DNA from: a virus
Direction: 5' to 3' (one strand)
IMG/VR virus record: IMGVR_UViG_3300010150_000023
Coordinates: 1 to 55,662 of that record
DNA: 55,662 nt
Below the pieces are notes generated by a model. That model was not told where the DNA came from. It ran no database searches and saw only the letters and a list, made by a program, of their open reading frames with translations. Below, in pieces: positions 30,001 through 51,641 of the stretch (position 1 is its first letter; each line of letters begins with the position of its first letter). The position numbers and the translations under genes are program-made.

Positions 30001-30639
30001 CAAGCAATTCAACTTACAGATGCAGAAGGTATTACACAGCCAAGTAAAGAACTAAACGTTCCAGGTGTATTATTTGTTAACGGAGAAAGAATTGAATACT
30101 TTGAAGTAGTTGGAAAAGAATTAAGACAACTACGTAGAGGTACATTAGGAACAGGACCTGCTGATACTTACCCTGCAGGAACAGAAATTATGGATCAAAG
30201 TAATTCTGAAACTATTCCTTATACAGACGAAATGGTAAGTTCAATAGCACTAGATGACGAAAGTACACAAATATTGCTAGATTGGATCCCTACTAAAGGG
30301 GTAGACGAGTTCGAAGTGTTTGTAGCAGGACGCAGACTACGTAAGAATTCAATCAGTATGTACCAAAATCAGGTAGTTGATGCTAATGGAATTGTAACAA
30401 CAGAGCTTATTGCTAAAGATAGCCCAGAAGGCGACATTACTTTAGCACCAGAGTTTACATTAAATATTACAGATTCATCAGCAACAGTAACACTTGTAGA
30501 CACTCCAGTAACAGGTACTAGGGTGGTTATAGTAAGAAAAATAGGAAAAACGTGGCAAACACCAGGGGAGCAGTTAAGATACGCAAATAATTCAATTGCT
30601 GAATTCATCCGCGAGGCAACAACTGACTTACCTAAATAA
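15016..30639 (+). CDS. Giant gp7-like baseplate/tail structural protein, 5,207 residues
   Basis: A single uninterrupted frame of 15.6 kb. The N-terminus (LLPKYFRTDANSKFLQATLD, then QLVQPGVAEKLNGYYGR) matches the start of large structural proteins that follow gp6 in marine T4-like phages, so it probably takes the place of T4 gp7 (1,032 residues). Internal modules visible: four carbohydrate-binding-like segments (near residues 1435, 1692, 2190 and 2975) of the form Trp/Tyr-Gly/Asp-VKY-FYR; FG-GAP-like beta-propeller repeats (about 2090-2180 and 3040-3290, for example DNGNLIVVSAPGTD); Gly-rich beta repeats (about 3676-3740 and 4025-4110, GTGFTNIPQVTI, GAGFTSIPTITI); and FIGDGSTVQFELS-type repeats (about 4330-4700). 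It shares late expression with gp6. The structural role is well supported; receptor binding is inference. Confidence 0.75.
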   Translation: MAYENNQSDFPLPVGGNEGSRKSENLLPKYFRTDANSKFLQATLDQLVQPGVAEKLNGYYGRQISKAYNADDNYVGDISTQRENYQFEPVTLIKDELDNVTFYKDYNDYLNQIKSFGGNTENQEVLNSQEYYAWQPHIDWDKFSNFREYYWLPYGPQTVRLAGQERGVESTVEVSLFNNVDNVAYKFSSDDLVNNPTLILYKGQTYTFDIDTIGTPITFKTKRTLESSFNYNDGVSAQGVEKGTVTFEVDVNAPEVLYYVAENDINNSGLIQIKDIDENTDIDVEKEILGKKKYKSSNGVQLSTGMKVSFAGFVTPEKYATGDWYVEGVGNNIKLVPESELSIPGSYSDNREVAFDTNAFDRLPFANANGYPATKDYIIVNRSSNDRNMWSRYNRWFHKNVIEESARINGQEINIDQNARATRPIIEFNANLKLFNFGTSTKSNVNVIDTFTKDIFSTVEGAVGYNIDGVDLVEGMRVLFTAEEDIRENGKIFKVKFITQKGRRQISLIEEPDTTPLENETVLALDGLEYKGRMFYYNGNTWNLTQEKTKVNQPPLFDLFDANGNSYGDASAYPNTTFTGNKVFSYRESTGNNDSQLGFPITYRSIENIGDIVFDFNLLNSEFTYTDTTFETITTSTDICTLQQYTTRSDYTSVNGWIKANVQSTQRVLRQYVANNNQTSFVVDVFDNSSSLDDLDIKVTVNNNLKFETIDYVFDKTDTNVIVRFNTALLKDDVVVFRCRSSATKNANGIYELPINLERNPLNNDITTFTLGEVNDHVTSIVQEVNDFFGIHPGPGNLRDIGNLSTFGRKFVQHSGPTNLALYHITDKSANIIKAIDFNRREYAKFKRLFIQTALGLGFDGTPKAHVDLIFAELNKNKTSNLPFYFSDMVPTGGARTITYDAIPGNIYYALNEIYDISVPSVKAVTVYLDDIQLVFGQDYTFNTDGFCEITKELTAGQVITINEYETTDGSYVPPTPTKLGLYPKFAPIKFIDNSYTEPTEVIQGHDGSITKAYGDFRDDLILEFEKRIYNNIRTNYNSDIIDIHDFIPGTYRNTTVTKENIDNVMLKDFASWLTNIDDVDYTAFDFYNRGNTFSYNYSSMQSPLDTALPGYWRGVYKQAYDTDRPHTHPWEMLGLTNMPDWWETVYGPAPYTSNNLLLWEDLEKGILAKPGVNKVVLEKYKRPGLTTHIPVNDLGQLLSPLDSGYAKNYVNGLTRASFVFGDEAPVETAWRRSSEYAFSLFKAWMLNQPTKIIGLGFDRLRTVRDNSNQIVYSTTSKRLRLVDLVFPNNSTTGSDSIRVFTSGFVNFIANYLASNVVSNYDTYQNNIANITNQVAFKVGGFTDKSKFNLLLDSRTPLNQGNVFVPEENYQVTLQTSSPIDVVTYSGVVIEKATAGYIIRGYDSSNPSFKYYNYVPNQNDPLVNVGGVSDSFIEWDSDQRYVADGVVKYQETFYRVTVGHTSTAIFDQSKFVKLPDLPVVGGRSAQFRTRFDSRFIKQLPYGTLLRTTQEVVDFLLGYGDYLQNAGFVFDNFNPTLEAVENWKLSAKEFMFWTLQNWDSGSLITVSPSAQRIEFSTSYAVVDDIFDPFYEYGLVSANGTKLRKEFVNILRTNENTFSLTVKNTADGIYALKLPLVQKEHVIVLDNETVFKDIIYDQEAGYRQERIRVLGYRTADWAGGLNIPGFIYDDAIVTTWQQWKDYAIGDAVKYKEFYYAAITKVSGSELFVDNQWYRLEEKPQSKLLTNLEYKTNQFGDFYDLDTDNFDVNQQEIAQHLIGYQKREYLANIINDDVSQYKFYQGMIADKGTKNVLTKLFDALSSADKESLEFYEEWAVRSGQYGASDGFEELEFLLDEEQFQLSPQPILLTETIPDDVSDLIYRQLPGSVFVAPNNYAHKPFPVKYVNDPALKTAGYVREEDVNYIVKSFDDILNIDHNAIQQGQYVWVTFDKNDWNVYKYTDTPCTITSALPVDNDAVLVLDRLTTLKVDDIVGLYDVTDEVQGFFKVKSVELNRITIALPEDVALTTEATGLTGILTTFISNRVTTLADANKFAESDIEFGETLWVDSITADGKGKWNVIKAGNSFDLDENLINPAESNISFGESIANDSANTVVAVGSPLDGDGKVYIYERQQDGSTTFGTLQPKQTLEPIANYSTTPGKFGQAMSMSPDGEYLVVTAPNSSNVKTAYKDEFNFATDYKLGSIVQYNGNLYKSRRTVKGRTDNIEFGTFDSASRWRSDLYKIHGTYDDVQLIALGDLPLVDVEIDHILVRAPLDAYEGSNIGDTLYLDWNELSLNYTPDVKPEIVNIELTNPVRLTTNSNHSLADGDQVILTDVPNDNLSFRPIAFPYLYDNSDINTPFDTVQQSSVKGIEGTKYYAKVLTNQQIELYSNEALTTKVNGTVGFVGTANIGGFNGYLNKVNKPFDNTFSGINKDFLSLNPHVIRRKVQEVFYILDPVNVPSVSAGDRVTTATGNADVVRVRNELGRLVIYADRKNGVFDESGTLFINDQFLVGSYTRPLADSVDRSTVLGGYWEIPLTTGFTPKDEQLTNTPTTDSGEGLVIVDVKNNYNPATLPGPDWTESTARLPYKSSVQNTLEHPVEVLASTSKAFKKETDLIRVLSHKSQGVAGNVTEVDVLDARFVVRLPKNVSDKAVSATADSTTPNPYVGVYLNDIPANGVLPDISDTGFGADPYAVINVDRRRPTDLWNGYIDYDVFAEVDLAPGDIIREGQSGASAEIAFIQRDLDKSRLYVKNVAGEFSFGSRYIDGLAPQSMWLYKQIGANLTRIGTTESRQLADEDIGYLAVFTHTTNLSIPPKLTFALNSITDEVADYETKFITGIEYQTWIEEYKPGLPRVTLEPSTENNDWAQVDNIPINVGRDASSYTKEGAYFVYQKDSTTGLYDLVSGYILPNRSNNRELGQRVKLIRDNNFYKLVINSKEPHTNDGTDGNGRLYFVLNGTSEFGTYNWSLGRDPNFKGEYNSISSYYQDQIVIYNDVFYKALTNLSNETFTPIKWQVIGSDIDFVGYLPNTSGLVIPGDDSSIINLSTSGYGEVFDISDNGRVLATVAKYDSGNKLVIYTLKDMHFQYVTEFTAPADSDSYGNSITVSDNGNLIVVSAPGTDARESQQGKVYVYKNVSGTYSLQQELNSPNAELVEGFGQTLGFDGNQLIVTGATSDILLDTTFDRYEQRDTTRNDYVNDPTKGFNIAQTTYDNGFTTFVKRVSDSGNVYVYENINDTLVFGQRLKYSNFNVKNFGKNVIVNNNTILVGLPALDVTGNIQGQVAVYIKDDIDSTWSVYREPVDSGDLNKFRGSFVYDTKQNTMLTRLDILDPILGKIPGTAEQELSYKTYYDPANYNVGFTNNKEQYIAWDDKNIGKLWWDLSTVKYIDYHQGSITYSQNTFNKLAEGASIDIYEWVESNILPSAWDSLAGTNRGTALGISGISKYGDTKYATREIYDSVGQVFTTKYYFWVKATKILPQIEGRNLTAYDIQNIITDPAGQKLRFVTVLGNDRFVLYNCNNLVSDTDVAINFRYWTIDNQDNNIHTEYQIITDGFESSKPKSNIEQKWFDSLIGTDKYGRAVPDPELSVKQKYGNLDRPRQSWFVNRKEALKQFIERVNRVLSKELAVDSLDLTKLSNKDPLPTVLSGMYDSAIDTEEELRFVGTVRAEQAVLEPVIIDGTVTKINVVTRGRGYKNVPKITINGTGSDLELTPVLNNIGAITSVIIVNGGTNYTDDLTLTVRRLSTLVRSDSTLGGKWSIYCWNSQTRNWTIDSQQSYDVSEFWNYKDWYASGYSELTSVDYLIDDYYELNIVDDQIGDIVKISSVGTGGWILLEKIVNVDTPDYSSGYKTVGRENGTLEFLSKLYTQDGGSLELRRILETIRDDLFIDELANEYNQLFFAGLRYVFTEQNYVDWAFKTSFIKAKHNVGELKEKTTYQNDNLPSFEKYIEEVKPYRTKVREYLSAYDKTDNTQSVVTDFELSPFYDTERGEIVSPQVQINDGVLSGINFDIDEYPQKHWVDNFTYSVEEIKIENGGTGFTNIPQVTITGGGGTGATASAYIGSGSVKNIVVTNSGAGFTSIPTITIDGVQDEGGLAPKVSIVLGNKKVRSLNVTQKFDRLSPNLEILNLPETEVFTSTGTELTLTLKFPMDLTRTNVRVFFNDTEALSSEYSFNNKELFSTNKTHIRNQGYITLTNAQLVGTIIKVEYNKDVSMLTAADRINLFYNASEGQLGKDLGQLMDGVDYGGVEVKSFEFGQDLGWDSKEWYTTSWDSYDENFDDESFVTTGPTFRFQLSKPLQEDTIYNVYVNATRVDDINYDGSTKTYIAGDGSTVLSLGNPNAIMLSITSDSTEYVVENGNYYIDIQNVEEWEEFFATSNPTITFRKSTSDGSFLPEGIGFDSLIEGGNLQYGTATGLDASDINLDGDGFVTPTTSKGPEELVPGQLHDTLDLKVYDRSADGGSLISTRNYTATDGQVDFDLDVLPHNIFSAIVKVNGKILQSEDVPGSDSSVVGTPEYTINFTDKKLTLRDALVAGDKVNVLSMAGSGERILDTDHFIGDGTTRTFVTSVIWADDIQSYINVDGANAQVSLFKTDSSYGDKAGLVGLDFVIPPNDNAFVYYSLFDTNEETIQRYSEVIIDRFIGDGSTVQFELSPEPASRLPLSHNIIVKVDDKILFPGYTQQWYITTAREYVLDRSQYPTSSLSPDAVDVYINGVKKVLLKDYRWNFNNSSVTLFDNVGETGDDLEIVITDSAEYEFSKNTLIGLPTVTGTFEPGETVEIGTGDSTVYTATVKSFTTGTGNLVVVGTVPGLSQAVDIDNSIPIVGLTSNATASSIVSITLVEAGDRLVLDSIPADGTQVDVYKFNRHELQDIQMETKTNVSRSILTVGTDDYYEFNRLTKGLVKLRAPAVDTAYLWISLNGIMLTPNVDYKLVKMDNYVQIDRPVKPNDKIQVIHFAADKASEKFGYRMFKDMLNRTHYKRLNQANVYFLAEPLSISDQAIQLTDAEGITQPSKELNVPGVLFVNGERIEYFEVVGKELRQLRRGTLGTGPADTYPAGTEIMDQSNSETIPYTDEMVSSIALDDESTQILLDWIPTKGVDEFEVFVAGRRLRKNSISMYQNQVVDANGIVTTELIAKDSPEGDITLAPEFTLNITDSSATVTLVDTPVTGTRVVIVRKIGKTWQTPGEQLRYANNSIAEFIREATTDLPK

Positions 30640-33489: not shown

Positions 33490-35733
33490 ATGGCTTATAA
33501 ACTAAACAAGACAGACGGAACGCTATTAACAGAACTAGTTGACGGCCAAATAGACACTACTAGTTCGGACATAACATTAATAGGACGTAACTACGTAGGG
33601 TTTGGTGAAGCGTTCAACGAAAACCTTATCAAGATACTAGAAAATTTTGCAAGTACAGCGGCACCAGCAACTCCTATTACAGGACAGTTATGGTACGATA
33701 AATCACAAGGTAGACTAAAAGTATATGATGGGACAGGTTTTAAATCAAATGGTCCTATAGTTAGTAACACACAACCACAAATGGTTGCAGGTGATATTTG
33801 GATAAACAATGCTACTAACCAAATGAAGTTCTTTGACGGTACAGGAGATCCTGTACTAGTTGGACCAATATATACAGATGCTCAAGGCAAGAGTGGATTT
33901 GAAGTTGATACAGTTAGAGATAAATCATCAGTTGACCATACACTAATTAAATTGTTTATTGGTGAAACTACAGTTGCTCTTATTAGTAACGATGAGTATA
34001 CTCCAACACTTGCAGAACAATCAAGACTAAATTACACACAAGATATCAAACGTGGCTTTAATATTATTGATGCTGATAATTTTAGATTCTATGGTGTTGC
34101 TGATTCATCTAACTCACTAATTACAGACCAAATTGATCCTGACACACAATTAAGAATTAGAAAAACAGCAGGACAGTTCCTAGCATCAGATGCTAACAGT
34201 ATTACAACTGGAACAATTTTTATTCAAAACTCCGGCGGTTTAACTATTGGACAATCAGGTGAAGCAAAGTTCCAAGCAACAGACGAACTTACAAGTATTG
34301 AGCTTACTGGTAAAGACGATAGATTTAGAATTAACTTATTAGGATCTACTGAATATGATGGATTTGTTTTAACTTCTAATAATAGAAGAGCTGGTATTAA
34401 TATGGACTTAGGTCAGTTACCAACTGCTACATTAGATGTTAATGGTGATGCACTTATTAGAGGTAACTTAACTATTGAAGGTTCAAGTACAACTATTGAA
34501 ACACAAAACTTAACAGTTGATGACTACAATATTGAACTAGGACATGCAGATACAGTAATAACACTTAATGCGGCTTTGGATGCTACTATTGCAGGACAAC
34601 TTACAGTAGGTGAAACTGTTACACAATCAAGCACACTAGCAACAGGTACTTTTAAAACTATTAGTTCAGACTTACTTACACTTACATTAGAGCCAACTAA
34701 CGGAACATTTAGTTCAGGCGCTGACACATTAACAGGCTCAGCAGTTGGTTTATTAAATCAAGAAAGCGGAGCAAATGCAGTAGTATCTAGCGTAGTACAA
34801 CGTAGTGACTCAACAGCAAATAATGCTGGTGTTATAATTAAAGGTGCTCCAAGTAATACAAATGCAAACGACAAATACCTTAAATGGCAAAATGATGGAA
34901 CTGAAGGTGACAACTGGCAAGTTAGTGATCATTTAAATCTTTATGATGGCAAAGCATACAAAATTAATAATGTTGTTATAGCACAAGAAAATGTTGGCGG
35001 AACATATCACGAATTAGGATCTGCTATTGAAGTAGCGTCAGGCTTGCGTGAAGTTGGTCAAATGGACAGAGTGCGTATACAGTCTTCTATGGAGATACGT
35101 GATAGCGGTGGTACTCCAATTATAGATACAACAGCTGGTCTTCAAATCAATAGTGGCGGAACAGTTGTGTTTAACAATGTAAAAATTACAGGTGTTGCTA
35201 CTACTAACTATGCTACAGGTGCAACAACTGATGTTGCAAACAAAGACTATGTAGATACACAAATGGAAAGTGATACTGTAGCACTAATAATAGATGTTAC
35301 AGATATGCCACAAACAGGTTTTTCAAGTTTAGATGAACAAGTTATTGACAGTATAAACTTTTTACATCCAGCGTCAGAAAAACGTATTAATACATATGCA
35401 AGAGTAATTACTACTTCGTTAAGAGGAGCAGTTAGTAACATTGCTATTGGGTCAAGTATTAGTACAACAAAGATTGGTGTAGATTTTTCAGACTTAAATG
35501 TTATTGAACCGTATGGTGTTGCACCAACAGCGGCAGGTCCAGCAAACCAGCAACTAATACAAGACATTGGATTTACAGGAACAACAACAGGTGATGTTAC
35601 GTTAAAGGCAGATGACGGCGCAACACCTACAGCAAATACAACTCGAGTTAAAAGATTCTTTAAAGTAGAGGATGTAGGCGGAACAAAGACATGGGTAACT
35701 TCTGCTACGGGTCCAAACGGTGAAACTCCGTAA
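33490..35733 (+). CDS. Tail fibre protein, second paralogue
   Basis: A 747-residue paralogue sharing the N-terminal domain with the genes on either side: SSDITLIGRNYVGFGEAFNE, LIKILENFA, ITGQLWYDKSQGRLKVYDG and AGDIWINNATNQMKFFDGTG. The rest is a beta-structured shaft with repeated GNLTIEGSSTTIETQNLTVD-type motifs and a late KDYVDTQM segment (near 590), which often marks trimer-forming fibre regions. No tail-collar or autoproteolytic tip is visible. It starts 3 bases after the previous stop and is followed by a gap with a late promoter. It may form a heteromeric or alternative fibre with its neighbours. Confidence 0.8.
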   Translation: MAYKLNKTDGTLLTELVDGQIDTTSSDITLIGRNYVGFGEAFNENLIKILENFASTAAPATPITGQLWYDKSQGRLKVYDGTGFKSNGPIVSNTQPQMVAGDIWINNATNQMKFFDGTGDPVLVGPIYTDAQGKSGFEVDTVRDKSSVDHTLIKLFIGETTVALISNDEYTPTLAEQSRLNYTQDIKRGFNIIDADNFRFYGVADSSNSLITDQIDPDTQLRIRKTAGQFLASDANSITTGTIFIQNSGGLTIGQSGEAKFQATDELTSIELTGKDDRFRINLLGSTEYDGFVLTSNNRRAGINMDLGQLPTATLDVNGDALIRGNLTIEGSSTTIETQNLTVDDYNIELGHADTVITLNAALDATIAGQLTVGETVTQSSTLATGTFKTISSDLLTLTLEPTNGTFSSGADTLTGSAVGLLNQESGANAVVSSVVQRSDSTANNAGVIIKGAPSNTNANDKYLKWQNDGTEGDNWQVSDHLNLYDGKAYKINNVVIAQENVGGTYHELGSAIEVASGLREVGQMDRVRIQSSMEIRDSGGTPIIDTTAGLQINSGGTVVFNNVKITGVATTNYATGATTDVANKDYVDTQMESDTVALIIDVTDMPQTGFSSLDEQVIDSINFLHPASEKRINTYARVITTSLRGAVSNIAIGSSISTTKIGVDFSDLNVIEPYGVAPTAAGPANQQLIQDIGFTGTTTGDVTLKADDGATPTANTTRVKRFFKVEDVGGTKTWVTSATGPNGETP

Positions 35734-38490: not shown

Positions 38491-40125
38491 TTAGTGTAAG
38501 TCTTCCCAAGCTGAGCCTGTGTATACTTGTAATTTTGTATCTGTAGTGTTAAACACAACCATACCAGCTGCCGCTGTTAGCGCATTACGTTGTGTAGTTG
38601 TCATACTAGCAAATTTAACAGCAGTACCAAAGTCTGCAACATCTTCTACAATCTTAGTTTTAATTGTATAGTTTGAAATGTCTTGTAGCTCATTTGCATC
38701 AGTTACTGAACCTGAATATTCAGTTACAAAGAAACCACTATTTGTTTCATTTAATTCTGTTCTGTGAATTGCAGTAATTGCACGTTCACCAAATGCTTGT
38801 AATTTTCCTGTAACGGTCATATCGTAATTTAATAGAACGTTATTGTCAATTACTAATTCTGTTGTGTAATCATTTGAGTCTGAACATATAGTGTTAACAG
38901 CAAGTTTTGTAGGGTTACTAGCACTGTATGCACCAATGAAATTATCGTTAATAACAACACCAGTTATACCACCTACGCTTATAGCATTGTCAACTGTTAA
39001 GTCACTGCTCATAACTACTGCTGGAGTAATTGTAATAGCACTTGAATCTGTACTATCAATTAAACTAGTAAACACGTTACCAGTTACTTCGCCTGCTACG
39101 TTACCAGTTACGTTACCAGTTAAATCACCAGTTACGTTACCTGTATGTACACCTGCACTATTACCAGTTAAATCACCAGTTACGTTACCAGTTACGTTAC
39201 CTGTAACATCGCCAGTTACTGCGCCAGTATGTGTACCTGCACTGTCACCAGTTAAGTCACCTGTAACATTGCCTGTTAGTGTTCCTGAAAGTGTTGTTGC
39301 TGTAACTGCATCAACTGATAAGTTTGCATCTGCTGGACCTGTATTTGATGCTAGTACTGTACTACCACCTGATCCTTTTATAGCACCTGTAACATCACCA
39401 GTTAAGTCACCTACTACGTTACCAGTTACGTTACCTACAACATCGCCAGTAACATCACCTGTTACATTACCTACAACAGCACCAGTGTGTGTACCTGCTG
39501 TGTCACCAGTAACATCACCTGTTACATTACCTACAACAGCACCAGTGTGTGTACCTGCTGTGTCGCCAGTAACATCACCTGTTAAGTCACCTGTAAGTGT
39601 ATTACTACTTTTGTCTACCATTACAGTGGAATTATCTGCAATAACGTCTGCGTTAATTGCTACTGCGTCTATTTGTCCGTCGACAGCTAACCCAGTGAAG
39701 TAACCATTGTTCCAACGTGCATTCGTTGCACCGATATCGTATGTAGAATCTGCGTTCGGAGTTAATGAACTTGTTATCTTTGCACCAAAGTCTACTGTAT
39801 CTGTACTAGCATCGTCACCAATGGTTACATTGCCAGTAGCATTAATAGTACCAGCAATATTAATATTACCTGTACCAATTATGTCTTTGCCGTTAAGGTC
39901 TAAATTTTGTTGTAAGTCTAAAGTTGAATTAATTGTATCAGCTACAATGTATTCACCTATGCTTGCAATAGCTGAACCAGCCAAAGGCAAACCGCCTGCT
40001 GTTGCTCCGTCACCTATGTATAATTTGTCAGTATCTGTTACATATACTAACTCGCCATTTGCGAATACTACACCGCCACCTGCGGTACGTTCAGCATCTG
40101 TGCCACGTCTGATCTGTAATGCCAT
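38491..40125 (-). CDS. Fibre-like protein with GNVTGDVTG repeats
   Basis: A 544-residue protein. The N-terminus MALQIRRGTDAERT with GELVYVTDTDKLYIGDG (residues 1-40) is a common attachment and baseplate-interaction motif of phage fibre proteins. DIGATNARWNNGYF near 130-143 is the fibre motif also seen in the third plus-strand fibre. Residues 177-351 are repeats of G-D/N-V/L-T, with a 20-residue unit repeated twice almost exactly. The C-terminus ends GMVVFNTTDTKLQVYTGSAW, another common tail-tip motif. It is transcribed opposite to the other fibres from its own late promoter (40162-40171) with AGGAG before the ATG. The repeats suggest a triple-stranded beta shaft of variable length. Confidence 0.8.
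   Translation of the reverse strand: MALQIRRGTDAERTAGGGVVFANGELVYVTDTDKLYIGDGATAGGLPLAGSAIASIGEYIVADTINSTLDLQQNLDLNGKDIIGTGNINIAGTINATGNVTIGDDASTDTVDFGAKITSSLTPNADSTYDIGATNARWNNGYFTGLAVDGQIDAVAINADVIADNSTVMVDKSSNTLTGDLTGDVTGDTAGTHTGAVVGNVTGDVTGDTAGTHTGAVVGNVTGDVTGDVVGNVTGNVVGDLTGDVTGAIKGSGGSTVLASNTGPADANLSVDAVTATTLSGTLTGNVTGDLTGDSAGTHTGAVTGDVTGNVTGNVTGDLTGNSAGVHTGNVTGDLTGNVTGNVAGEVTGNVFTSLIDSTDSSAITITPAVVMSSDLTVDNAISVGGITGVVINDNFIGAYSASNPTKLAVNTICSDSNDYTTELVIDNNVLLNYDMTVTGKLQAFGERAITAIHRTELNETNSGFFVTEYSGSVTDANELQDISNYTIKTKIVEDVADFGTAVKFASMTTTQRNALTAAAGMVVFNTTDTKLQVYTGSAWEDLH
39073..39597 (-). repeat. Repeat array coding for GDVTG/GNVTG units, with a 60-bp tandem core
   Basis: Codons for G-D/N-V/L-T recur throughout. 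Between about 39443 and 39584 a 60-bp unit (20 residues) is repeated about 2.4 times with only a base or two changed between the first two copies. The high identity points to recent duplication or ongoing recombination. Confidence 0.9.
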
Positions 40126-40161
40126 TCTAGTTAACTCCTGATAACATATTTATTTGTTATT

Positions 40162-40171
40162 AGTATTTATC
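40162..40171 (-). promoter_or_regulatory. Late promoter GATAAATACT for the minus-strand fibre gene
   Basis: GATAAATACT on the minus strand (40171-40162), identical to the motif at 35754-35763. A 6-bp inverted repeat (ATAACA/TGTTAT at 40141-40146 and 40155-40160) with AATAAATA in its loop lies between it and the ribosome binding site AGGAG. Confidence 0.65.
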
Positions 40172-40179
40172 CATCTGAA

Positions 40180-40497
40180 CTATCTTCTTAACTTTAAAAA
40201 TTTTCTAGTTCTTTTGGTAATATCTGCTTTAACCTTGTCCGTATCTAGTCTAAAGTCAACATTCTTTATAACGTTTTGATACTGTTCAAATAGGTCGTCT
40301 AAGGATTTTTCTAGATCTTTTACAGGCTTTTTATCTGTATTGATATCAATGTCCCATATTTTACCGTCAGTAAATTCTACTCTGACAGAGTTAAGGTATT
40401 CAAGTGGTACTACATCAATGTGTACATCCTTGAATACCTCTGGCCAATGATCTATTACTTCTTTTGGAAGTTGTTTTTTACGAGGTTTCTTTTGCAC
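40180..40497 (-). CDS. Conserved phage protein, unknown function
   Basis: A 105-residue protein with a very basic N-terminus (KKPRKKQLPKEVIDHWPEVF) and a second conserved part VPLEYLNSVRVEFTDGKIWD. The C-terminus is again Lys/Arg-rich. The start is GTG, because no ATG lies near the N-terminus in this frame, and it overlaps the end of the upstream gene by 20 bases. The pattern is familiar from marine T4-like phages, where it stays uncharacterised. Basic termini might bind nucleic acid, but that is a guess. Confidence 0.65.
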   Translation of the reverse strand: MQKKPRKKQLPKEVIDHWPEVFKDVHIDVVPLEYLNSVRVEFTDGKIWDIDINTDKKPVKDLEKSLDDLFEQYQNVIKNVDFRLDTDKVKADITKRTRKFLKLRR

Positions 40498-41080
40498 TAG
40501 ACTTGGATTTCTTCTTAGTAGGCACCAATTCCTCTGCTTGTTCTCGTAGTACTTTTGCTTCTTTAAATAATGAGTCTGCTTGTGAACGATATTGTGCGGC
40601 TAAATCTTCGTCGCTTAATGTATCATTAACAGGTGCTGTTGCTTCGGGTGCTTTAACAGGTGCTTGTGCTGTTGCATCTGCGTTTGGAGCGCCTTTAACT
40701 TCTCCGGCTAAGTCTGCTACTGTAATACCTTTTTGTTCAGCAATAATTTTATTTAATTCTGCAAGGTTAATAGTTGTACTATTATCAGGTGTCATTTCAA
40801 TATCTTCTGATAATACTTTAGTTAGTTTGCCCATTGCATGGAAACCTACTAACATGTTCTTACCGTCTGGTAATTGTGTTCTGTGCATTGCATCAGCAAG
40901 TTCATTTGCTTCTTGTCCTGCACCTGATTCAATTAAAGTCATTAAAGCATCATGATCTGGTGAATCTAAATTTTCACTCATTACTACAAGTGAAAACTGA
41001 TGGTCTCCAGGTATTGTGCGATATGCTACTGCACATCTTTTTTGATTTTTTACAACGCGGCCTATATGTTTAAGTGCCAT
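40478..41080 (-). CDS. Conserved T4-like phage protein, unknown function
   Basis: A 200-residue protein beginning LKHIGRVVKNQKRCAVAYRT, with SPDHDALMTLIESGAGQEAN and EMTPDNSTTINLAELNKIIA as the next conserved blocks (to about 130). An Ala/Pro-rich linker follows (about 130-155), then a helical tail and a Lys/Ser-rich end. It recalls a conserved protein of marine T4-like phages next to a small Ala/Pro-rich partner, as here. The good ribosome binding site (AGGAGA) and the overlap with the downstream gene support the coding call. A virion-associated role is possible, but nothing in the sequence proves it. Confidence 0.65.
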   Translation of the reverse strand: MALKHIGRVVKNQKRCAVAYRTIPGDHQFSLVVMSENLDSPDHDALMTLIESGAGQEANELADAMHRTQLPDGKNMLVGFHAMGKLTKVLSEDIEMTPDNSTTINLAELNKIIAEQKGITVADLAGEVKGAPNADATAQAPVKAPEATAPVNDTLSDEDLAAQYRSQADSLFKEAKVLREQAEELVPTKKKSKSSAKETS

Positions 41081-41372: not shown

Positions 41373-41657
41373 TTATTTGTATTTCAGAAGTGGACAAGCC
41401 AACATGAAATAACTTGCTTCTTTCGGGTCTTCAAATCCTACCTTAATAAAGTTATCAGTTTTACCATTACTACTTGATACTCCGACTGATTTTCCTAAAA
41501 AGTATCTACCTTTTAAATGTCTCAGTACCCATTTATTTAACGATTCCTCGATGTTGTAGGTGTAAGGAATGGTTATATATTCGAATTGTGGAGATACGCA
41601 ATGCGCTCTCCTTAATCCAAAAAAGTTTAAAGCGTTTGGTTGTTTAAGTTTATGCAC
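41373..41657 (-). CDS. Hypothetical protein overlapping the VWA/metallopeptidase gene
   Basis: A 94-residue protein with a GTG start overlapping the end of the upstream gene by 8 bases; GAGGAAA precedes it at suitable distance. Visible features are FEYITIPYTYNIEESLNKWV, LRHLKGRYFLGKSVGV and SYFMLACPLLKYK. It seems to be a small mixed alpha/beta protein, with no family I can name. The tight overlap with the metallopeptidase/VWA gene suggests co-translation and possibly a related job. Confidence 0.55.
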   Translation of the reverse strand: MHKLKQPNALNFFGLRRAHCVSPQFEYITIPYTYNIEESLNKWVLRHLKGRYFLGKSVGVSSSNGKTDNFIKVGFEDPKEASYFMLACPLLKYK

Positions 41658-42948
41658 TCATTTCCTCGTAGTGTAAAGTTGTACCAAACGGTGCTTCGGT
41701 CTTTTTATCATGATGTGAATGTAATAAAAATAATGTATCACAATAATCTGCATCACCCCATGAGTCCCATGTATATCCATCTGTAAACATAATGAACTTT
41801 TTAGGAACAATATCTCTGTCTTTCATGTACTGCCAGTTAACGTCAAAGTCAGTGCCGCCACCGCCCATAACTTCGTAGTCACGTAAGTCTTCTCCACCAT
41901 CAGCAGTAAATTCTTGTTCGTTATATACCTTTGTATCAAAGCACCATACAGTAATTTTGTAATCTGCATACTGATCCATAATGCCTTGTACTTCACTTAA
42001 AAAGTCTGTTGCTTGTGAATTACCAATTGATCCTGACATGTCAATACTAACACATAGTTCAATTGAATCGTCAAAGTTTTGTCCTGGAAGTACTGCACTA
42101 GTATGCCAGCCTTTACGTGAAGGTTTCATAAATGTAAAGTCATTTTTTACAGTAGATTGAATCTGCTGTGAAATAATTTCACGCCAGTTCATTTTAGGCT
42201 CTGTAAGTTCTTTAATCATACGTTGCACTTCGCCTGGTGTATTACCTGCACCTGCCGCTTGTGCCGCTTGCATCATGCCTTCTTTAATTTCGTCTTTAAT
42301 TTGTTTTGCTTCTGCTTTAGTCATCTTAGGCTTTTTCTTAGATGTACCGTTGCCGTTTGAATCTTTACCTTCGCCGTTGTCGCCCGGTTGATCACCACCT
42401 TCTGCTTCAAGGTGCTCGTCTAGTAACTCACCTAATTGTTCTAAGTAGTCTTTTCCGTTCTGTTTTGCAGTTTCGTATATGTCATCATATACTTGCTCAC
42501 CGCTCCAACCTTCATATTTAAAGTCTTGATAGCAGTCTACTAGTTTAGGCTTTTCACCAATACGATCACGTACTAGTAAGTTATTAACTAGATAGTCAAC
42601 AGCAATATTCCAAATCAAAGGCTGTCGATCTTCTCTACGATCCATGTGTCCAAAAACACAATGTAAAATTTCATGTGCAATAACAAATTCAATTTCTTTG
42701 TTTGACATTGCATTAAAGAACTGAGTGTTGTAATAAAGGTTGCGTCCGTCTACAGCGGCAGTAGGTAACCAATCATCTGCGGCTAAAATGCGTAAACGTG
42801 TTGCCATGTTGCCAAAGAATGGATGACGCAACAACAAACCTACACGAGCAATAATAATGCGGTCATATACTTCTACTCGCATTTCTTCTAGTGCTTCTGG
42901 TGTTATATTAAGGTCTGGTTCCCAAAGTTTAGTTCCTGCAACGCTCAT
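41650..42948 (-). CDS. VWA domain protein with N-terminal HExxH metallopeptidase-like domain
   Basis: A 432-residue two-domain protein. Residues about 20-180 hold the zinc-binding motif HEILH (92-96) with a further His at 101, like the metallopeptidase-like domain associated with VWA proteins (DUF2201 type). A hydrophilic Gly/Asp/Asn linker (about 182-207) leads into helices and then a VWA domain (about 295-432) with an intact MIDAS site: DMSGS (303-307), Thr366 in GGGGTD and TDG (389-391). In bacteria such proteins pair with MoxR AAA+ ATPases to remodel or mature target proteins. The MoxR gene is directly upstream, and both carry nearly identical promoters. The substrate is unknown. Proteolytic activity is inferred from the motif only. 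Confidence 0.85.
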   Translation of the reverse strand: MSVAGTKLWEPDLNITPEALEEMRVEVYDRIIIARVGLLLRHPFFGNMATRLRILAADDWLPTAAVDGRNLYYNTQFFNAMSNKEIEFVIAHEILHCVFGHMDRREDRQPLIWNIAVDYLVNNLLVRDRIGEKPKLVDCYQDFKYEGWSGEQVYDDIYETAKQNGKDYLEQLGELLDEHLEAEGGDQPGDNGEGKDSNGNGTSKKKPKMTKAEAKQIKDEIKEGMMQAAQAAGAGNTPGEVQRMIKELTEPKMNWREIISQQIQSTVKNDFTFMKPSRKGWHTSAVLPGQNFDDSIELCVSIDMSGSIGNSQATDFLSEVQGIMDQYADYKITVWCFDTKVYNEQEFTADGGEDLRDYEVMGGGGTDFDVNWQYMKDRDIVPKKFIMFTDGYTWDSWGDADYCDTLFLLHSHHDKKTEAPFGTTLHYEEMSA

Positions 42949-42983
42949 GTTCTTATGCCCTTTTGTTTGTTACTATACTTATT

Positions 42984-43011
42984 AGTATACACTCTTTACA
43001 CTAAAAGTCAA
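42984..43011 (-). promoter_or_regulatory. Promoter of the VWA/metallopeptidase gene
   Basis: TTGACT (43011-43006), 16-base spacer, TATACT (42989-42984). A perfect inverted repeat TATACT-AATA-AGTATA (42974-42989) overlaps the -10 box and the start region. The sequence matches the moxR promoter at TTGACTTTTA, AGAGTGTATACTA and the downstream GTATAG. Confidence 0.75.
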
Positions 43012-43018
43012 TATAAAA

Positions 43019-43044
43019 TGGACGTTTTTTAATGAGAACGTCCA
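43019..43044 (-). terminator. Rho-independent terminator after moxR
   Basis: TGGACGTT / AACGTCCA, an 8-bp stem with a 10-base loop, followed on the minus strand by TTTTAT. It lies about 18 bases after the moxR stop and just before the promoter of the VWA gene, so the two genes are separate transcripts despite being adjacent. Confidence 0.7.
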
Positions 43045-43061
43045 AAACTCTACACACCATA

Positions 43062-44150
43062 TTAAGACTGTTGTGCGGCCTTAATATACTTTCCAAAACG
43101 ATCGTGGAATTCATCAAAGCATTCCACTTCATCTGGATCAATGGGCAAAGCGTACTGAGTGAGTGCTACTTTAACACCCATGACAACCAATTCAGTTTCA
43201 AAATTGTCCATTGCAAAGCGTAAAAAGTTATTCACTTTTTCATCAAACTTCTTATCATTTGCATCTGACGCTTCTTTAAGTTCGTAGCAAAGTGATACAG
43301 TCAGGGAATACATTGCACTGATTTCTGTCTGTTTCAACTCTTTAACCTTACCTGACAAAATGTCAGTTGGGTTAGGCATAGATGCCGCTACTTTACGGTG
43401 TGCCATAAACTTAATGGCTAACCCTTCGCCGACTGTACCTGATGTAAGATCAGTTGTAGTTTCGACGTCGAGTTCGTCTTCTAATAGTTCACTTACAAAT
43501 GTCCAACTACGTGGAGTTGCAAATGAACGACTTGGTGACTTTGGATCAAAGTCGTATAAATCTTTCTTACTAAACTGTAAAAAACCTACTACATCGTTAT
43601 GTATCTTTTTATCTACAGCCCAATCAAACCAATCTGCAAAGTTAACCTCTAACTCTAAGTGGATGAAACGGTTTGCTAACGGAGCAGGCATTCTGTATGT
43701 AACACCTTTGTCAGCTTCACGGTTACCAGCCGCAACAATTAGTACATTGTCTGGTAGTTTGTATGCTCCAACCTTACGGTTAAGAATAAGTTGATAAGCC
43801 GCCGCTTGTACAGCAGGTGCCGCAGAGTTCATTTCATCTAAGAACAATACAATGTTGTCGTATTGTGCCGCAAATTCTTCACTTGGAAGTTCTACAGGCG
43901 GTGCCCATTTCATTGTGTTATCGTTAGCGGCATAATAAGGCATGCCTTTAATATCTGTTGGATCCCATAAAGACAAACGAATGTCAATCAAGTGTGAATT
44001 GGGTAAACTGTTAGCCACTTGTTCGACTATTTCAGATTTACCAATACCTGGAGGTCCCCAAAGAAAGATTGGACGCTTCTTTTTAAGAGCGTGTTTAATT
44101 GATTTTTTAGCCTTATTAGGGCTTACGGTGCGTAGTGCTACATTTTCCAT
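43062..44150 (-). CDS. MoxR-family AAA+ ATPase
   Basis: A 362-residue AAA+ protein. Walker A GPPGIGKSE is at 32-40, Walker B LFLDEMN at 102-108, sensor 1 in VLIVAAGNRE (about 134-143), and an Arg-finger-like LANRFIHLEL near 160. The typical MoxR insertion residues follow Walker B (SAAPAVQAAAYQLI). I chose the ATG at 44150 because AGAGGA lies 6-11 bases upstream; the ATG 24 bases earlier has no ribosome binding site. MoxR ATPases cooperate with VWA proteins as chaperones for metal-centre insertion or complex remodelling. The VWA/metallopeptidase gene lies immediately downstream with a twin promoter. A role on host or virion complexes is inference. Confidence 0.88.
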   Translation of the reverse strand: MENVALRTVSPNKAKKSIKHALKKKRPIFLWGPPGIGKSEIVEQVANSLPNSHLIDIRLSLWDPTDIKGMPYYAANDNTMKWAPPVELPSEEFAAQYDNIVLFLDEMNSAAPAVQAAAYQLILNRKVGAYKLPDNVLIVAAGNREADKGVTYRMPAPLANRFIHLELEVNFADWFDWAVDKKIHNDVVGFLQFSKKDLYDFDPKSPSRSFATPRSWTFVSELLEDELDVETTTDLTSGTVGEGLAIKFMAHRKVAASMPNPTDILSGKVKELKQTEISAMYSLTVSLCYELKEASDANDKKFDEKVNNFLRFAMDNFETELVVMGVKVALTQYALPIDPDEVECFDEFHDRFGKYIKAAQQS

Positions 44151-44205
44151 ATTATATTCCTCTTGTGTTGTCATCAGTGCTAAGTTAATTTCTAACTATA
44201 CATAT

Positions 44206-44233
44206 AGTATACACTCTACAGAATAAAAGTCAA
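44206..44233 (-). promoter_or_regulatory. Promoter of the MoxR gene
   Basis: TTGACT (44233-44228), 16-base spacer, TATACT (44211-44206). ACTATA-CA-TATAGT (44195-44208) forms a palindrome across the -10 and start region. The arrangement and much of the sequence repeat those of the VWA gene promoter. Confidence 0.75.
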
Positions 44234-44919: not shown

Positions 44920-44959
44920 ATGCGTATACTCCTTAAAATTATATACGCATATATTTATC
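44918..44959 (-). promoter_or_regulatory. Late promoter plus ribosome-binding-site hairpin (T4 gene e-like)
   Basis: On the minus strand GATAAATA (44959-44952) leads into ATATGCGTATA (44952-44942), a 13-base loop with AAGGAG, then TATACGCATAT (44928-44918), whose end is part of the ATG at 44919. The arms are perfectly complementary over 11 bp. Late transcription starting 6 bases after the motif would begin within the first arm and leave only about 5 bp of stem. Confidence 0.7.
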
Positions 44960-47211: not shown

Positions 47212-47322
47212 TTACCATCCTGCTTTTCTAATGCGATCTTCACTAATAGGAGCCTTCATAGCCCGTTCATGTTGTGCATTTTTATATTGTTTTTCTTTCA
47301 CTTGATCAAGTGCCCCATGCAT
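47212..47322 (-). CDS. Possible small protein between queE and the next gene
   Basis: A 36-residue frame starting MHGALDQVKEKQYKNAQHER, overlapping the end of queE by 17 bases and ending 3 bases before the next start. It fills the only gap in this tightly packed operon, and its last codons contain the AGGATGG that serves the next gene. The protein is charged and helical. Longer versions of this frame run antiparallel to nothing but overlap queE deeply and are rejected. Confidence 0.4.
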   Translation of the reverse strand: MHGALDQVKEKQYKNAQHERAMKAPISEDRIRKAGW

Positions 47323-48265
47323 TTCCGAATAAGGATATGTGGAGTCTAGGGGTAAATCTCCATCCTCTTTCCATACACGCCTCCGCCACGTCTTTAACGT
47401 TGAGGGAATATTCTTCACTGCGTCCGCCCAACGGCATAAGATATACCGGACATTCCACCCCGGCACTTCTATAAGCGTCCACAGCTTTTGTAACTTCGTC
47501 AAAGTCGTTATCAGTAGCCACAACAAACTTAAGATAAAGTTCACTGCCGTCAACACGAGTATACTCGCGAGCAACATCAGGCTTAATAGCAGTCTCCCAA
47601 GGTTCTCCTGAGACACTAAGTTTTGGGGAACAACTCCAAGTGACTTCAAGTCTATCGCTATCATTGAGATAGTTGTAGAGATCGTCGTGTAAATGTTGTG
47701 TAGTGTTTGTTTCAAATGTAACATTTTTTAAATCCTGCATACGTGGATGCTCAAATAGTTCTACGTACAATCGTTGCCACGCCAACAAAGGTTCGCCGCC
47801 TGTCATAATCAAGTGTATATCTTGACCATTGTCCATTGTCCACTTACCTTCTGGAGTAAGCGATAGCAAGTGTTCAACTACTTCGTCTACAGATGCTTGT
47901 TTATTAAAGTGTTTAAACTCTGGGTAAATGCTTGCATATGTATCACACCCTGTATGTATGATAGGCAAGTCATTAAACTCAGCAGTAGTTTTGTGTACAT
48001 CACTAGCAATTAAGTCTGCAACTTCTTTATTGTGAACAATGCCTGCTTTTTGTTTTTCGTCACGCATTGGCTCATTATCTAAACCAAAGTTCATACAGCG
48101 GAAGTTACAACCGAAAGTACGCAGGAATACACTAGGTACTCCTACAAATTTACCTTCGCCTTGTACGCTATAAAATGCTTCTGAATATCTAAGTTTCATT
48201 TGTGGCTTTCTTTTAACAGCAGTAAACTCAGGCATTCCTAATTGATATGCTGGAGCTTCTATCAT
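47306..48265 (-). CDS. queE: QueE, 7-carboxy-7-deazaguanine synthase (radical SAM), variant cluster spacing
   Basis: A 319-residue radical SAM enzyme converting 6-carboxy-tetrahydropterin to 7-carboxy-7-deazaguanine. The N-terminal YSEAFYSVQGEGKFVGVPSV is the QueE signature. The FeS ligands are spaced unusually: Cys53 and Cys57 in FGCNFRCMNFG, then a third Cys107 in HTGCDTYAS, giving CX3CX49C where most radical SAM enzymes have CX3CX2C. The SAM-binding TGGEP is at 155-159, and the end RFTPRLHISLFGNAWGT is typical. The insertion makes it longer than bacterial QueE (about 220). The ATG at 48265 follows AGGAT and lies one base after the folE stop. It is co-transcribed with folE. Confidence 0.88.
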   Translation of the reverse strand: MIEAPAYQLGMPEFTAVKRKPQMKLRYSEAFYSVQGEGKFVGVPSVFLRTFGCNFRCMNFGLDNEPMRDEKQKAGIVHNKEVADLIASDVHKTTAEFNDLPIIHTGCDTYASIYPEFKHFNKQASVDEVVEHLLSLTPEGKWTMDNGQDIHLIMTGGEPLLAWQRLYVELFEHPRMQDLKNVTFETNTTQHLHDDLYNYLNDSDRLEVTWSCSPKLSVSGEPWETAIKPDVAREYTRVDGSELYLKFVVATDNDFDEVTKAVDAYRSAGVECPVYLMPLGGRSEEYSLNVKDVAEACMERGWRFTPRLHISLFGNAWGT

Positions 48266-48266
48266 A

Positions 48267-48956
48267 TTATGATCCTGCCGCAAATTGTTGTTGTAACTTA
48301 ACGTTGTCAATAAACTCTTTCTTAGTTGCAGGGTCATCTTTAAATGCACCACGCAATACAGTTGTTTGAGTTAATGAACTATGGGCTCTAATACCTCTGT
48401 TTTCACAACAACCATGTGTTGCTTGTACATATACACCTACGTGTTCACTACCTGTTTGTTCTTGTATTGCATTAGCAATCATAACATTTAGTTCTTCTTG
48501 TAGTGTACCTCTTGTAGCACACCATTGTGCAATACGTGTATACTTACTTAGTCCTAGTAATTTAGGTCCTGCAATAATACCAATATACGCTACACCTTTT
48601 ACTGTTTGGTGATGATGTGAACACAAACTTGTAAGTTCACTACGTACAACTAGCATACCTTCATAACCACCTTCAATGTAGTTAGGGAAAGCACTTGGGT
48701 TAGGCATTGGATCATAACGTCCTGCCATAATCTCATTGATGTACATTTTAGCCATACGTCTTGCAGTATCCATACTGTTAGGATCTGTTTTCGTATCAAT
48801 TAGTAACTTTTGCAACACTTCTTCAAAAGCAGGAACTGCTTCGTCAATTAGTTGTTGTTTGTCACCTTCTTCAATGTATTCAGCAATGTTATCATTTGCC
48901 CAATACCTTACGCCAGCTTCTTCTAGCTTTGCTTGGATTTCTTTACTTTTACTCAT
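48267..48956 (-). CDS. folE: GTP cyclohydrolase I
   Basis: A 229-residue enzyme opening GTP to dihydroneopterin triphosphate, the first step to folate and to 7-deazaguanines. It contains MDTARRMAKMYINEIMAG (62-79), LCSHHHQTVKG (111-121) with zinc ligands Cys112 and His115, YTRIAQWCATRGTLQEEL and THGCCENRGIRAHSS with the third zinc ligand at Cys183 or Cys184. Length and motifs are those of a complete type I enzyme. It starts an operon with queE behind a perfect sigma70 promoter, with GGAG before the ATG. Direct linkage to queE favours 7-deazaguanine rather than folate supply. Confidence 0.94.
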   Translation of the reverse strand: MSKSKEIQAKLEEAGVRYWANDNIAEYIEEGDKQQLIDEAVPAFEEVLQKLLIDTKTDPNSMDTARRMAKMYINEIMAGRYDPMPNPSAFPNYIEGGYEGMLVVRSELTSLCSHHHQTVKGVAYIGIIAGPKLLGLSKYTRIAQWCATRGTLQEELNVMIANAIQEQTGSEHVGVYVQATHGCCENRGIRAHSSLTQTTVLRGAFKDDPATKKEFIDNVKLQQQFAAGS

Positions 48957-50523: not shown

Positions 50524-51229
50524 ACAGTGTACCTTTGATCCTTCTTAAAATAGAGTCTTTAAGTCTTGCTTGTTTAAATCGTTTATATCTTTTTGCTAAC
50601 GGCACCCAACTTTCCCATGATGCTCCTGATGAAAGTGTAAGAGCAATGTCGTACAGCTCAGGAGTTAGGTCAAACCTTTGTAATTGTATAGCCTTGTTAG
50701 TATTAAAACTTACATATGCTAGTGCTTCATCTTCTTCAACTGTAAAGTTTTTAGCACCAGGATAGAAGTTATATTCTAAATTAATGGGTCTAAACCAGTC
50801 ACTTATGTTGAACCTTCCTGGCACAATACTACCTGATAATGTGTGCGGTGCCTTGTCCATATAAGGAGATGTTAGTGTTAAGTCTACATTGTCGTCTTCT
50901 GCAAAGAATATCCACTGTAAGTTATATTTTAATGTTTGATGATCTTTAAGACAACTATCTCTTGTTTGATAAACAGGTATAACAGACTCTACTTTTGCAA
51001 AACTATTATTCTGCACAATAGGCACATTAGTTCGCATAGGGTTAGTTAGTACTACAGTATTTTTTGCAAAGTCGCTAAATGCAGGACAATAAAAGAAATC
51101 ACTTTGTTTGTCTTGTATTTTTAAGTGTAGTTGACTTTTGCGATCCCATAAGGTTTGTGGCTCTGGATATATTACACTCCAGTCACGGTCCTCTGCTTGT
51201 GCAATAGGAGCATAGTATATCTTACTCAT
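50513..51229 (-). CDS. Conserved phage protein, unknown function
   Basis: A 238-residue soluble protein, unusually rich in aromatic residues (WSVIYPEPQTLWDRK, LKYNLQWIFFAEDDNVDLTL, WFRPINLEYNFYPG). The C-terminus is basic (LAKRYKRFKQARLKDSILRR). It is tightly packed, overlapping its neighbours by 8 and 11 bases, with the cupin gene before and the membrane protein after. I do not recognise the family. The aromatic, beta-rich pattern would suit a ligand- or sugar-binding fold, but this is only an impression. Confidence 0.55.
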   Translation of the reverse strand: MSKIYYAPIAQAEDRDWSVIYPEPQTLWDRKSQLHLKIQDKQSDFFYCPAFSDFAKNTVVLTNPMRTNVPIVQNNSFAKVESVIPVYQTRDSCLKDHQTLKYNLQWIFFAEDDNVDLTLTSPYMDKAPHTLSGSIVPGRFNISDWFRPINLEYNFYPGAKNFTVEEDEALAYVSFNTNKAIQLQRFDLTPELYDIALTLSSGASWESWVPLAKRYKRFKQARLKDSILRRIKGTLYDS

Positions 51230-51641
51230 CCTGAAGATACCTTTTATGACTTATCCAGTTGCCTTTCACTCTGAATCCCCAATCTGTTGCTTTCTTGCCC
51301 ATAAAGAACAAACTCCAGCAAGGTATTTCGTTACCGTCTGCATCTTTTGCAAGTTCTAAATAGTGTAAATCTTCTGATCTACGATATCGGAAATGACCAG
51401 GGCCTCGCCAAAAGCGTCCTTTAGGAGTATTTTCATAGTAGCCACCTTTTAAAATTAGTGTTGCATAATTCCAAGGATGATCATGTAATGTTTCTTCGTC
51501 ACTTTTTAAAACTTTGTGTAGTGTGACATTGAAAGGAAAGTTCTTTCTGTCCTTTAGAAACAAGTAATAACGTACAAGATACGGTTCACTTGTATTCCTA
51601 TCTTTAATTACACGTTTACGATTTTTTAAAAAATCAAACAT
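51222..51641 (-). CDS. Cupin-like protein
   Basis: A 139-residue protein with a cupin-type motif: TLHDHPWNYATLILKGGYYE (51-70) with His53 and His55 as likely metal ligands, a Gly turn (GPGHFRYRRSEDLHYLEL) and a closing strand with CWSLFFMGKKATDWGF. It resembles the small cupin-like proteins common in marine T4-like phages. Cupins bind metals and act as dioxygenases, isomerases or sensors; the substrate is unknown. It overlaps the next gene by 8 bases and abuts the previous stop. Confidence 0.7.
   Translation of the reverse strand: MFDFLKNRKRVIKDRNTSEPYLVRYYLFLKDRKNFPFNVTLHKVLKSDEETLHDHPWNYATLILKGGYYENTPKGRFWRGPGHFRYRRSEDLHYLELAKDADGNEIPCWSLFFMGKKATDWGFRVKGNWISHKRYLQDE

Follow-up and report, generated by a model that had tools for sequence, protein, structure and literature searches.

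Separate promoters and common leader elements of a MoxR ATPase/VWA-metallopeptidase gene pair in a marine T4-like phage lineage

The IMG/VR virus record IMGVR_UViG_3300010150_000023 was analyzed over its entire length of 55,662 bases, hereafter the window. It contains two genes on the minus strand, one for a predicted MoxR-type AAA+ ATPase (moxR) and, directly 3' of it, one for a protein that joins a putative HExxH zinc-metallopeptidase domain to a von Willebrand factor A (VWA) domain with a metal-ion-dependent adhesion site (MIDAS). We found that the control region of this pair, made up of a hairpin and two promoters, is real and partly conserved. Each gene has its own promoter and leader, a hairpin separates them, the two genes are strictly adjacent in the lineage, and the ATPase, HExxH and MIDAS residues are conserved. 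In addition, elements in the start region and in the leader are common to both genes and almost absent from the other promoters examined. We read the pair, with a probability of about 0.55, as an early or middle MoxR/VWA remodelling protease whose two parts are expressed in parallel. The protein pair as such is already known and the control architecture looks to be the new part, no publication on its promoters being among those listed in our literature searches on the pair.

In the window, both open reading frames, the sigma70-type promoter in front of each and the terminator-like hairpin between them were found as the first-pass annotation had described them (Table 1). The hairpin does not appear in the output of a generic scan, because its loop exceeds the loop limit of that scan. 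The two promoters had also been called near copies without parallel in the window, and this was borne out: 25 of 29 bases are the same, and the ungapped local score between the two upstream regions was 21, compared with a mean of 8.0 (sd 1.2) and a maximum of 12 in 300 dinucleotide shuffles. The pattern TTGACTTTTAN6AGAGTGTATACTA, which was derived from the two sites themselves, matched only these two promoters of the window when up to 3 mismatches were allowed, and had 0 matches in 100 shuffles.

Table 1. Positions of the gene pair and of its control elements in the window.
Feature	Position	Strand	Remarks
DUF2201_N metallopeptidase (HExxH) + DUF2201 VWA (MIDAS) protein	41650..42948	-	432 aa (amino acids); Pfam 5.7e-39 and 1.1e-14
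GGGCA in VWA leader	42956..42960	-	
GTATAG start-region element of VWA gene	42973..42978	-	
VWA-gene sigma70-type promoter TTGACT-16-TATACT	42984..43011	-	
Terminator-like hairpin, moxR/VWA intergenic	43020..43043	-	24 nt (nucleotides), then ATTTTAT; -10.9 kcal/mol
MoxR-type AAA+ ATPase open reading frame	43062..44174	-	370 aa, longest frame; Pfam AAA, AAA_3, AAA_5 above cut-off; phrog_1297
moxR leader TTAGAAAT...GCACTGA	44174..44195	-	hairpin strong in relatives, weak in window
GTATAG start-region element of moxR	44196..44201	-	
moxR sigma70-type promoter TTGACT-16-TATACT	44206..44233	-	
Late-promoter-like TAAATA motif, upstream of moxR by two genes	44952..44957	-	possible late read-through, a point against early or middle expression

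The arrangement is maintained in relatives. In 177 of 215 moxR-bearing loci (some of them overlapping stretches of single contigs), moxR is followed directly by the VWA gene in the same orientation, and the remaining 38 end at most 220 nt past moxR, cut off before the VWA gene. For the promoters, 233 loci and the window were scanned and 164 were used; 56 were left out for lacking one gene, 8 for lacking a moxR promoter by our rule, 5 for lacking a VWA promoter and 1 because it was cut. Each gene had its own sigma70-type promoter in 36/36 representatives (under 93% MoxR identity and passing the promoter rule), a figure that is conditional on finding both promoters, since loci without a recognisable one had been left out. 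In those that failed the moxR rule, a weaker -10 comes after TTGAC. All 44 non-redundant intergenic rows have a hairpin of -6 kcal/mol or better ahead of the VWA promoter, the sequences differing widely. One sublineage (L054, L055, L058, L072, L073) has neither the VWA promoter nor the hairpin, and its two genes directly adjoin each other as an operon, which may be an alternative route to co-expression.

The close likeness of the two promoters is mostly local to the window. The exact 29-nt moxR promoter pattern was recovered in 20 IMG/VR stretches; it precedes moxR in all 20 and the VWA gene as well in only one, and the idea that the cassette is mobile or phage-wide was thereby rejected. Among contigs whose MoxR is at least 95% identical, ten were readable, of which one carries the exact second copy and nine have a different VWA promoter. 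Furthermore, promoter similarity within a phage was not above the cross-phage level (permutation p 0.12 and 0.13), so that concerted evolution of twin promoters is unsupported. The dedicated expression of a two-part AAA+/VWA machine proposed in the first-pass annotation is supported, as parallel expression, by the separate promoters and the hairpin; conserved twin copies are not supported. We consider it rather probable that the near-identity reflects mostly family resemblance, the VWA promoter having also undergone a small number of recent changes, without functional meaning in itself; this explanation is compatible with parallel expression of a remodelling protease, but it leaves unexplained the start-region and leader elements that these two genes have in common with hardly any other promoter.

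The same annotation had suggested control by a repressor, with palindromes over the -10 boxes. Inverted repeats are indeed present at both promoters of the window, and a DNA-binding protein could read them as twin operators. Across the representatives, perfect 5-bp repeats occur at 13/36 moxR promoters (4.0 expected) and at 13/36 VWA promoters (5.3 expected), the expectation coming from a mononucleotide shuffle, which is a weak null. However, the spacing is unequal at the two window sites (TATAC-N5-GTATA versus TATACT-N4-AGTATA), the commonest moxR form (TATTAT with ACATA, 14/36) loses the TATAC..GTATA dyad, and other viruses use the same promoter form. We therefore regard a repressor acting on twin operators as quite improbable.

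Conservation lies in the kind of start region, downstream of the -10. An (A/G)(C/T)ATA-type element follows it in 36/36 moxR and 26/36 VWA promoters, versus 1/43 other promoters of sigma70 type, taken from the window and two long relatives. The pattern TTGACN17-19TATNNTATATRYATA gave 8 matches in ten long relatives, and all 8 are at moxR or the VWA gene.

Both genes also carry a GGCACTGA-type leader. Of 84 distinct moxR leaders, 79 have the motif GCACTG; GGCAC occurs in 17/36 VWA leaders versus 1/43 of the others. A search for GGCACTG, leader, AGGA and ATG in this order over eight records returned nine matches, eight of which are at moxR or the VWA gene, and the ninth inside a coding sequence of Phosso; 3/8 records had no match. 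One of the eight precedes the VWA gene of Phosso, a jumbo phage of Sinorhizobium with proteins of only about 40-44% identity, and GGCACTG is not enriched across the Phosso genome (48 versus 57 for the control). A 23-nt leader pattern was found in 116 IMG/VR stretches, 115 times before moxR and once at a contig end. A phage-wide use of the GGCACTGA leader was rejected, the remaining matches in two long relatives not being leader-placed, going by their printed contexts. With regard to the limits of the moxR leader, the true start of the gene is probably Met9 at 44150, with AGAGG as ribosome site and a product of 362 aa, and therefore 44174-44180 (GCACTGA) would be non-coding leader.

The moxR leader of many relatives forms a hairpin at its 5' end; of the relatives folded, two strong examples gave z -2.2 and -3.3, and in a third the hairpin was not significant (z +0.07). 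Covariation was assessed on 23 distinct elements, leaving aside two odd leaders and those that lack the stem-loop core. Changes on both sides of the stem were counted in 10 cells, compared with 5.7 in shuffles, and 0/500 shuffles had as many as 10; counted by pairs, just 2 change on both sides, and 140/500 shuffles reach this. Covariation thus supports the hairpin modestly. Most likely, the GGCACTGA leader acts at the RNA level, as a signal by which both mRNAs are tuned jointly. A more specific version, in which the leader and the hairpin of the relatives are a dedicated RNA control that links the two mRNAs in their translation or decay and keeps their ratio without an operon, seems doubtful to us; the reader of the element would then possibly be the MoxR/VWA machine itself or a phage RNA-binding protein.

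The make-up of the two proteins agrees with a remodelling function. As the first-pass annotation had noted, the ATPase has intact Walker motifs, and Walker A (GPPGIGKS) and Walker B (LFLDE) are invariant or nearly so in an alignment of 26 sequences of the lineage. Its Pfam scores were 29.2 bits for AAA_3 (cut-off 27), a profile which we take to be MoxR-type, and 28.1 for AAA_5 (cut-off 22); the motifs, the profile match and the VWA neighbour all fit a predicted MoxR ATPase. In the partner, DUF2201_N (134.8 bits, cut-off 23.2) and DUF2201 (55 bits, cut-off 26.4) lie on one chain, and both were found by Pfam scan in 6/6 proteins of other phages. The HExxH motif (H92, E93 and H96) and the complete MIDAS (D303, S305, S307, T366 and D390) show no variation across the 26 sequences. 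The same residues are also invariant across seven divergent phages, namely the window and N4, EdH4, 121Q, PA5oct, Phosso and S-TIM66, these six being 25-46% identical to the window protein. The predicted model of the partner (mean predicted local distance difference test score, pLDDT, 72) has a C-terminal VWA fold (Z about 10), with the VWA domain of NorQ-NorD among the structural matches (Z 9.7). The N-terminal domain resembles the small metallopeptidase MJ1213 selecase in sequence (E 0.001) and weakly in fold (E 0.11); a Foldseek search gave a single PDB match under E 0.001, an entry titled virus capsid, which was left uninterpreted. The partner can therefore be described as a putative zinc-metallopeptidase and MIDAS adaptor.

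Phrog_1314, N4 gp25 (NC_008720), PA5oct gp144 and many phage and RefSeq records call this DUF2201 protein an 'HNH endonuclease'. The label was not supported, as neither the window protein nor 6 homologues had an HNH Pfam match at E 0.001.

RavA-ViaA, NorQ-NorD and CbbQ-CbbO are bacterial MoxR/VWA pairs, and in such systems the MoxR ring drives a conformational change in a VWA partner that holds its target through the MIDAS. Judged by make-up, the phage pair is like them in having an AAA+ ring and a MIDAS-bearing VWA adaptor, and unlike them in the N-terminal HExxH domain of the adaptor. Remodelling coupled to cleavage is likely because the VWA partner also has this conserved metallopeptidase domain. 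In the mechanism that we propose, host RNA polymerase would transcribe the two genes in the early or middle phase, and a separate strong start at each would allow a parallel supply of the two proteins despite the predicted stop of moxR transcription before the VWA gene. By extension from the MoxR/VWA family, the MoxR ring would move the VWA subunit at the expense of ATP; this subunit would grip a target protein through the MIDAS metal, and the peptidase domain would clip or license it. The least certain step is the nature of this target, which may be a protein present during take-over or replication and not a late virion part.

The timing is what separates this proposal from a role in the virion. 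Iyer et al. (2021) described a MoxR-vWA/metallopeptidase pair in group 2.2 jumbo phages and proposed that it acts in virion assembly (PMC7824862, section 3.4.5). Like that of the window, it consists of a MoxR ATPase and a vWA protein fused to an N-terminal metallopeptidase, encoded by two genes, and the description in that section says nothing on promoters, terminator or leader. The first-pass annotation named virion assembly as one possible role among others, and both the pair and this idea had by then been published. In the published proposal, which draws an analogy with Acidianus two-tailed virus, the pair would act as a chaperone-protease while tails or heads mature. This is possible but unlikely in our opinion. 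A tail-fibre-like gene lies near the pair in the window, and in 121Q and S-TIM66 the pair is close to genes named as structural. However, the promoters of the pair are of sigma70 type, while late-like motifs are seen at structural genes of the window. The motif ATAAATA, which we take to be T4-late-promoter-like (TATAAATA-like consensus), precedes 5/39 window genes, tail and baseplate genes included, versus 0/165 coding stretches; in two long relatives the counts are 26/183 genes versus 2/775 coding stretches and 11/170 versus 1/680. In the window, no late-like motif stands directly before moxR or the VWA gene, and the N4 homologues of the pair are given as middle transcripts (PMC4193335). Thus, unlike the proposal of Iyer et al., the expression signals of the window point to an earlier phase.

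Several observations weigh against an early or middle, jointly tuned pair. The ATAAATA enrichment is owed in part to AT-rich intergenic sequence. In the spacer of the VWA promoters, TAAATA recurs at a near-constant distance in 27/36 relatives (moxR, 1/36) and could be an overlapping late promoter; because of this motif and of the late-like motif upstream of moxR (Table 1), late expression is possible. The moxR product of PA5oct bears an electrospray tandem mass spectrometry ('ESI-MS/MS') note, like the structural-named proteins of the same stretch, which favors virion assembly, but the PA5oct exonuclease is so marked too and the PA5oct VWA protein is not. As to the RNA elements, the VWA leader of the window has GGGCA only, which may be a degenerate version of the GGCAC(TGA) element of its relatives, and no significant hairpin was obtained for the moxR leader of the window (z +0.43). 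Finally, TTGAC-N18-TATTATATATACATA was found away from moxR and the VWA gene in other viral contigs, in 37 of 93 newly fetched loci (L241-L333). The start element is therefore not unique to the pair, and TATTATATATACATA as a private feature of the system was ruled out. Since other viruses have the same form, it would be a strong-promoter form that serves mainly this pair in these phages, and no private operator.

Promoters of early or middle type would also suit a pair that dismantles a host defence or another host complex early in infection, and MoxR-vWA modules do occur in bacterial conflict systems (PMC7159879, PMC12839542). Nevertheless, both genes are core genes in 25 N4-like phages (Schitoviridae; PMC4193335) and are found in phages with many different hosts, and a general function fits this distribution better than a patchy anti-defence one. 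We consider counter-defence or host-complex disassembly improbable.

The comparison with isolated phages shows how far the arrangement extends. The window belongs to a marine T4-like lineage, being a fragment of a myovirus with genes for a late sigma factor, SbcC/D, baseplate wedge and hub, and tail. Its wider kin include Pseudomonas phage PA5oct, with which it has a gene order in common (QueE, structural protein, exonuclease, ..., MoxR). PA5oct gp149 and gp144 are among the closest isolated relatives of the pair (50% and 44% identity), with a gene order similar to that of the window; unlike in the window, four genes, including a homing endonuclease, stand between MoxR and VWA, and no sigma70-like site of at least 9/12 was found before either gene. 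In Escherichia phage N4, gp24 and gp25 are a homologous ATPase (tblastn 1e-28) and a DUF2201_N+DUF2201 partner, adjacent and in the same order as in the window. Unlike in the window, phage RNA polymerases serve the early and middle genes of N4, and the 200 nt before gp25 hold no sigma70-like site of at least 9/12. In the Vequintavirus EdH4 (MK327930), the two genes are at 34319-35503 (-) and 39155-40615 (+), about 3.7 kb apart; since they sit apart on opposite strands, separate expression of the pair recurs there. A CRISPRi-ART study used N4 and EdH4, both of which bear the pair, and the portion of it cited here gives no result on these genes (PMC11879866).

Other features of the window may be mentioned. 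A single open reading frame of 5,207 aa (15016-30639, +) lies between baseplate and tail genes, and 12-nt periodic repeats (39062-39624) were seen within the tail-fibre-like gene. Genes for a QueE-like radical SAM protein and a GTP cyclohydrolase adjoin each other (47306-48956, -), which suggests a 7-deazaguanine pathway. In addition, this phage carries a cysteine-dioxygenase-like gene (51222-51641, -).

The ATPase half of the pair matched 753 and the VWA half 802 of 50,697 phage records, with many hosts. MoxR/VWA is thus a very widespread and uncharacterised phage gene pair, whose second half is in many cases wrongly labelled an HNH endonuclease. Its conserved control region offers a clue, taken from sequence only, to the timing of the pair and to the paired dosage of its parts, and makes virion assembly and early remodelling separable by transcript mapping.

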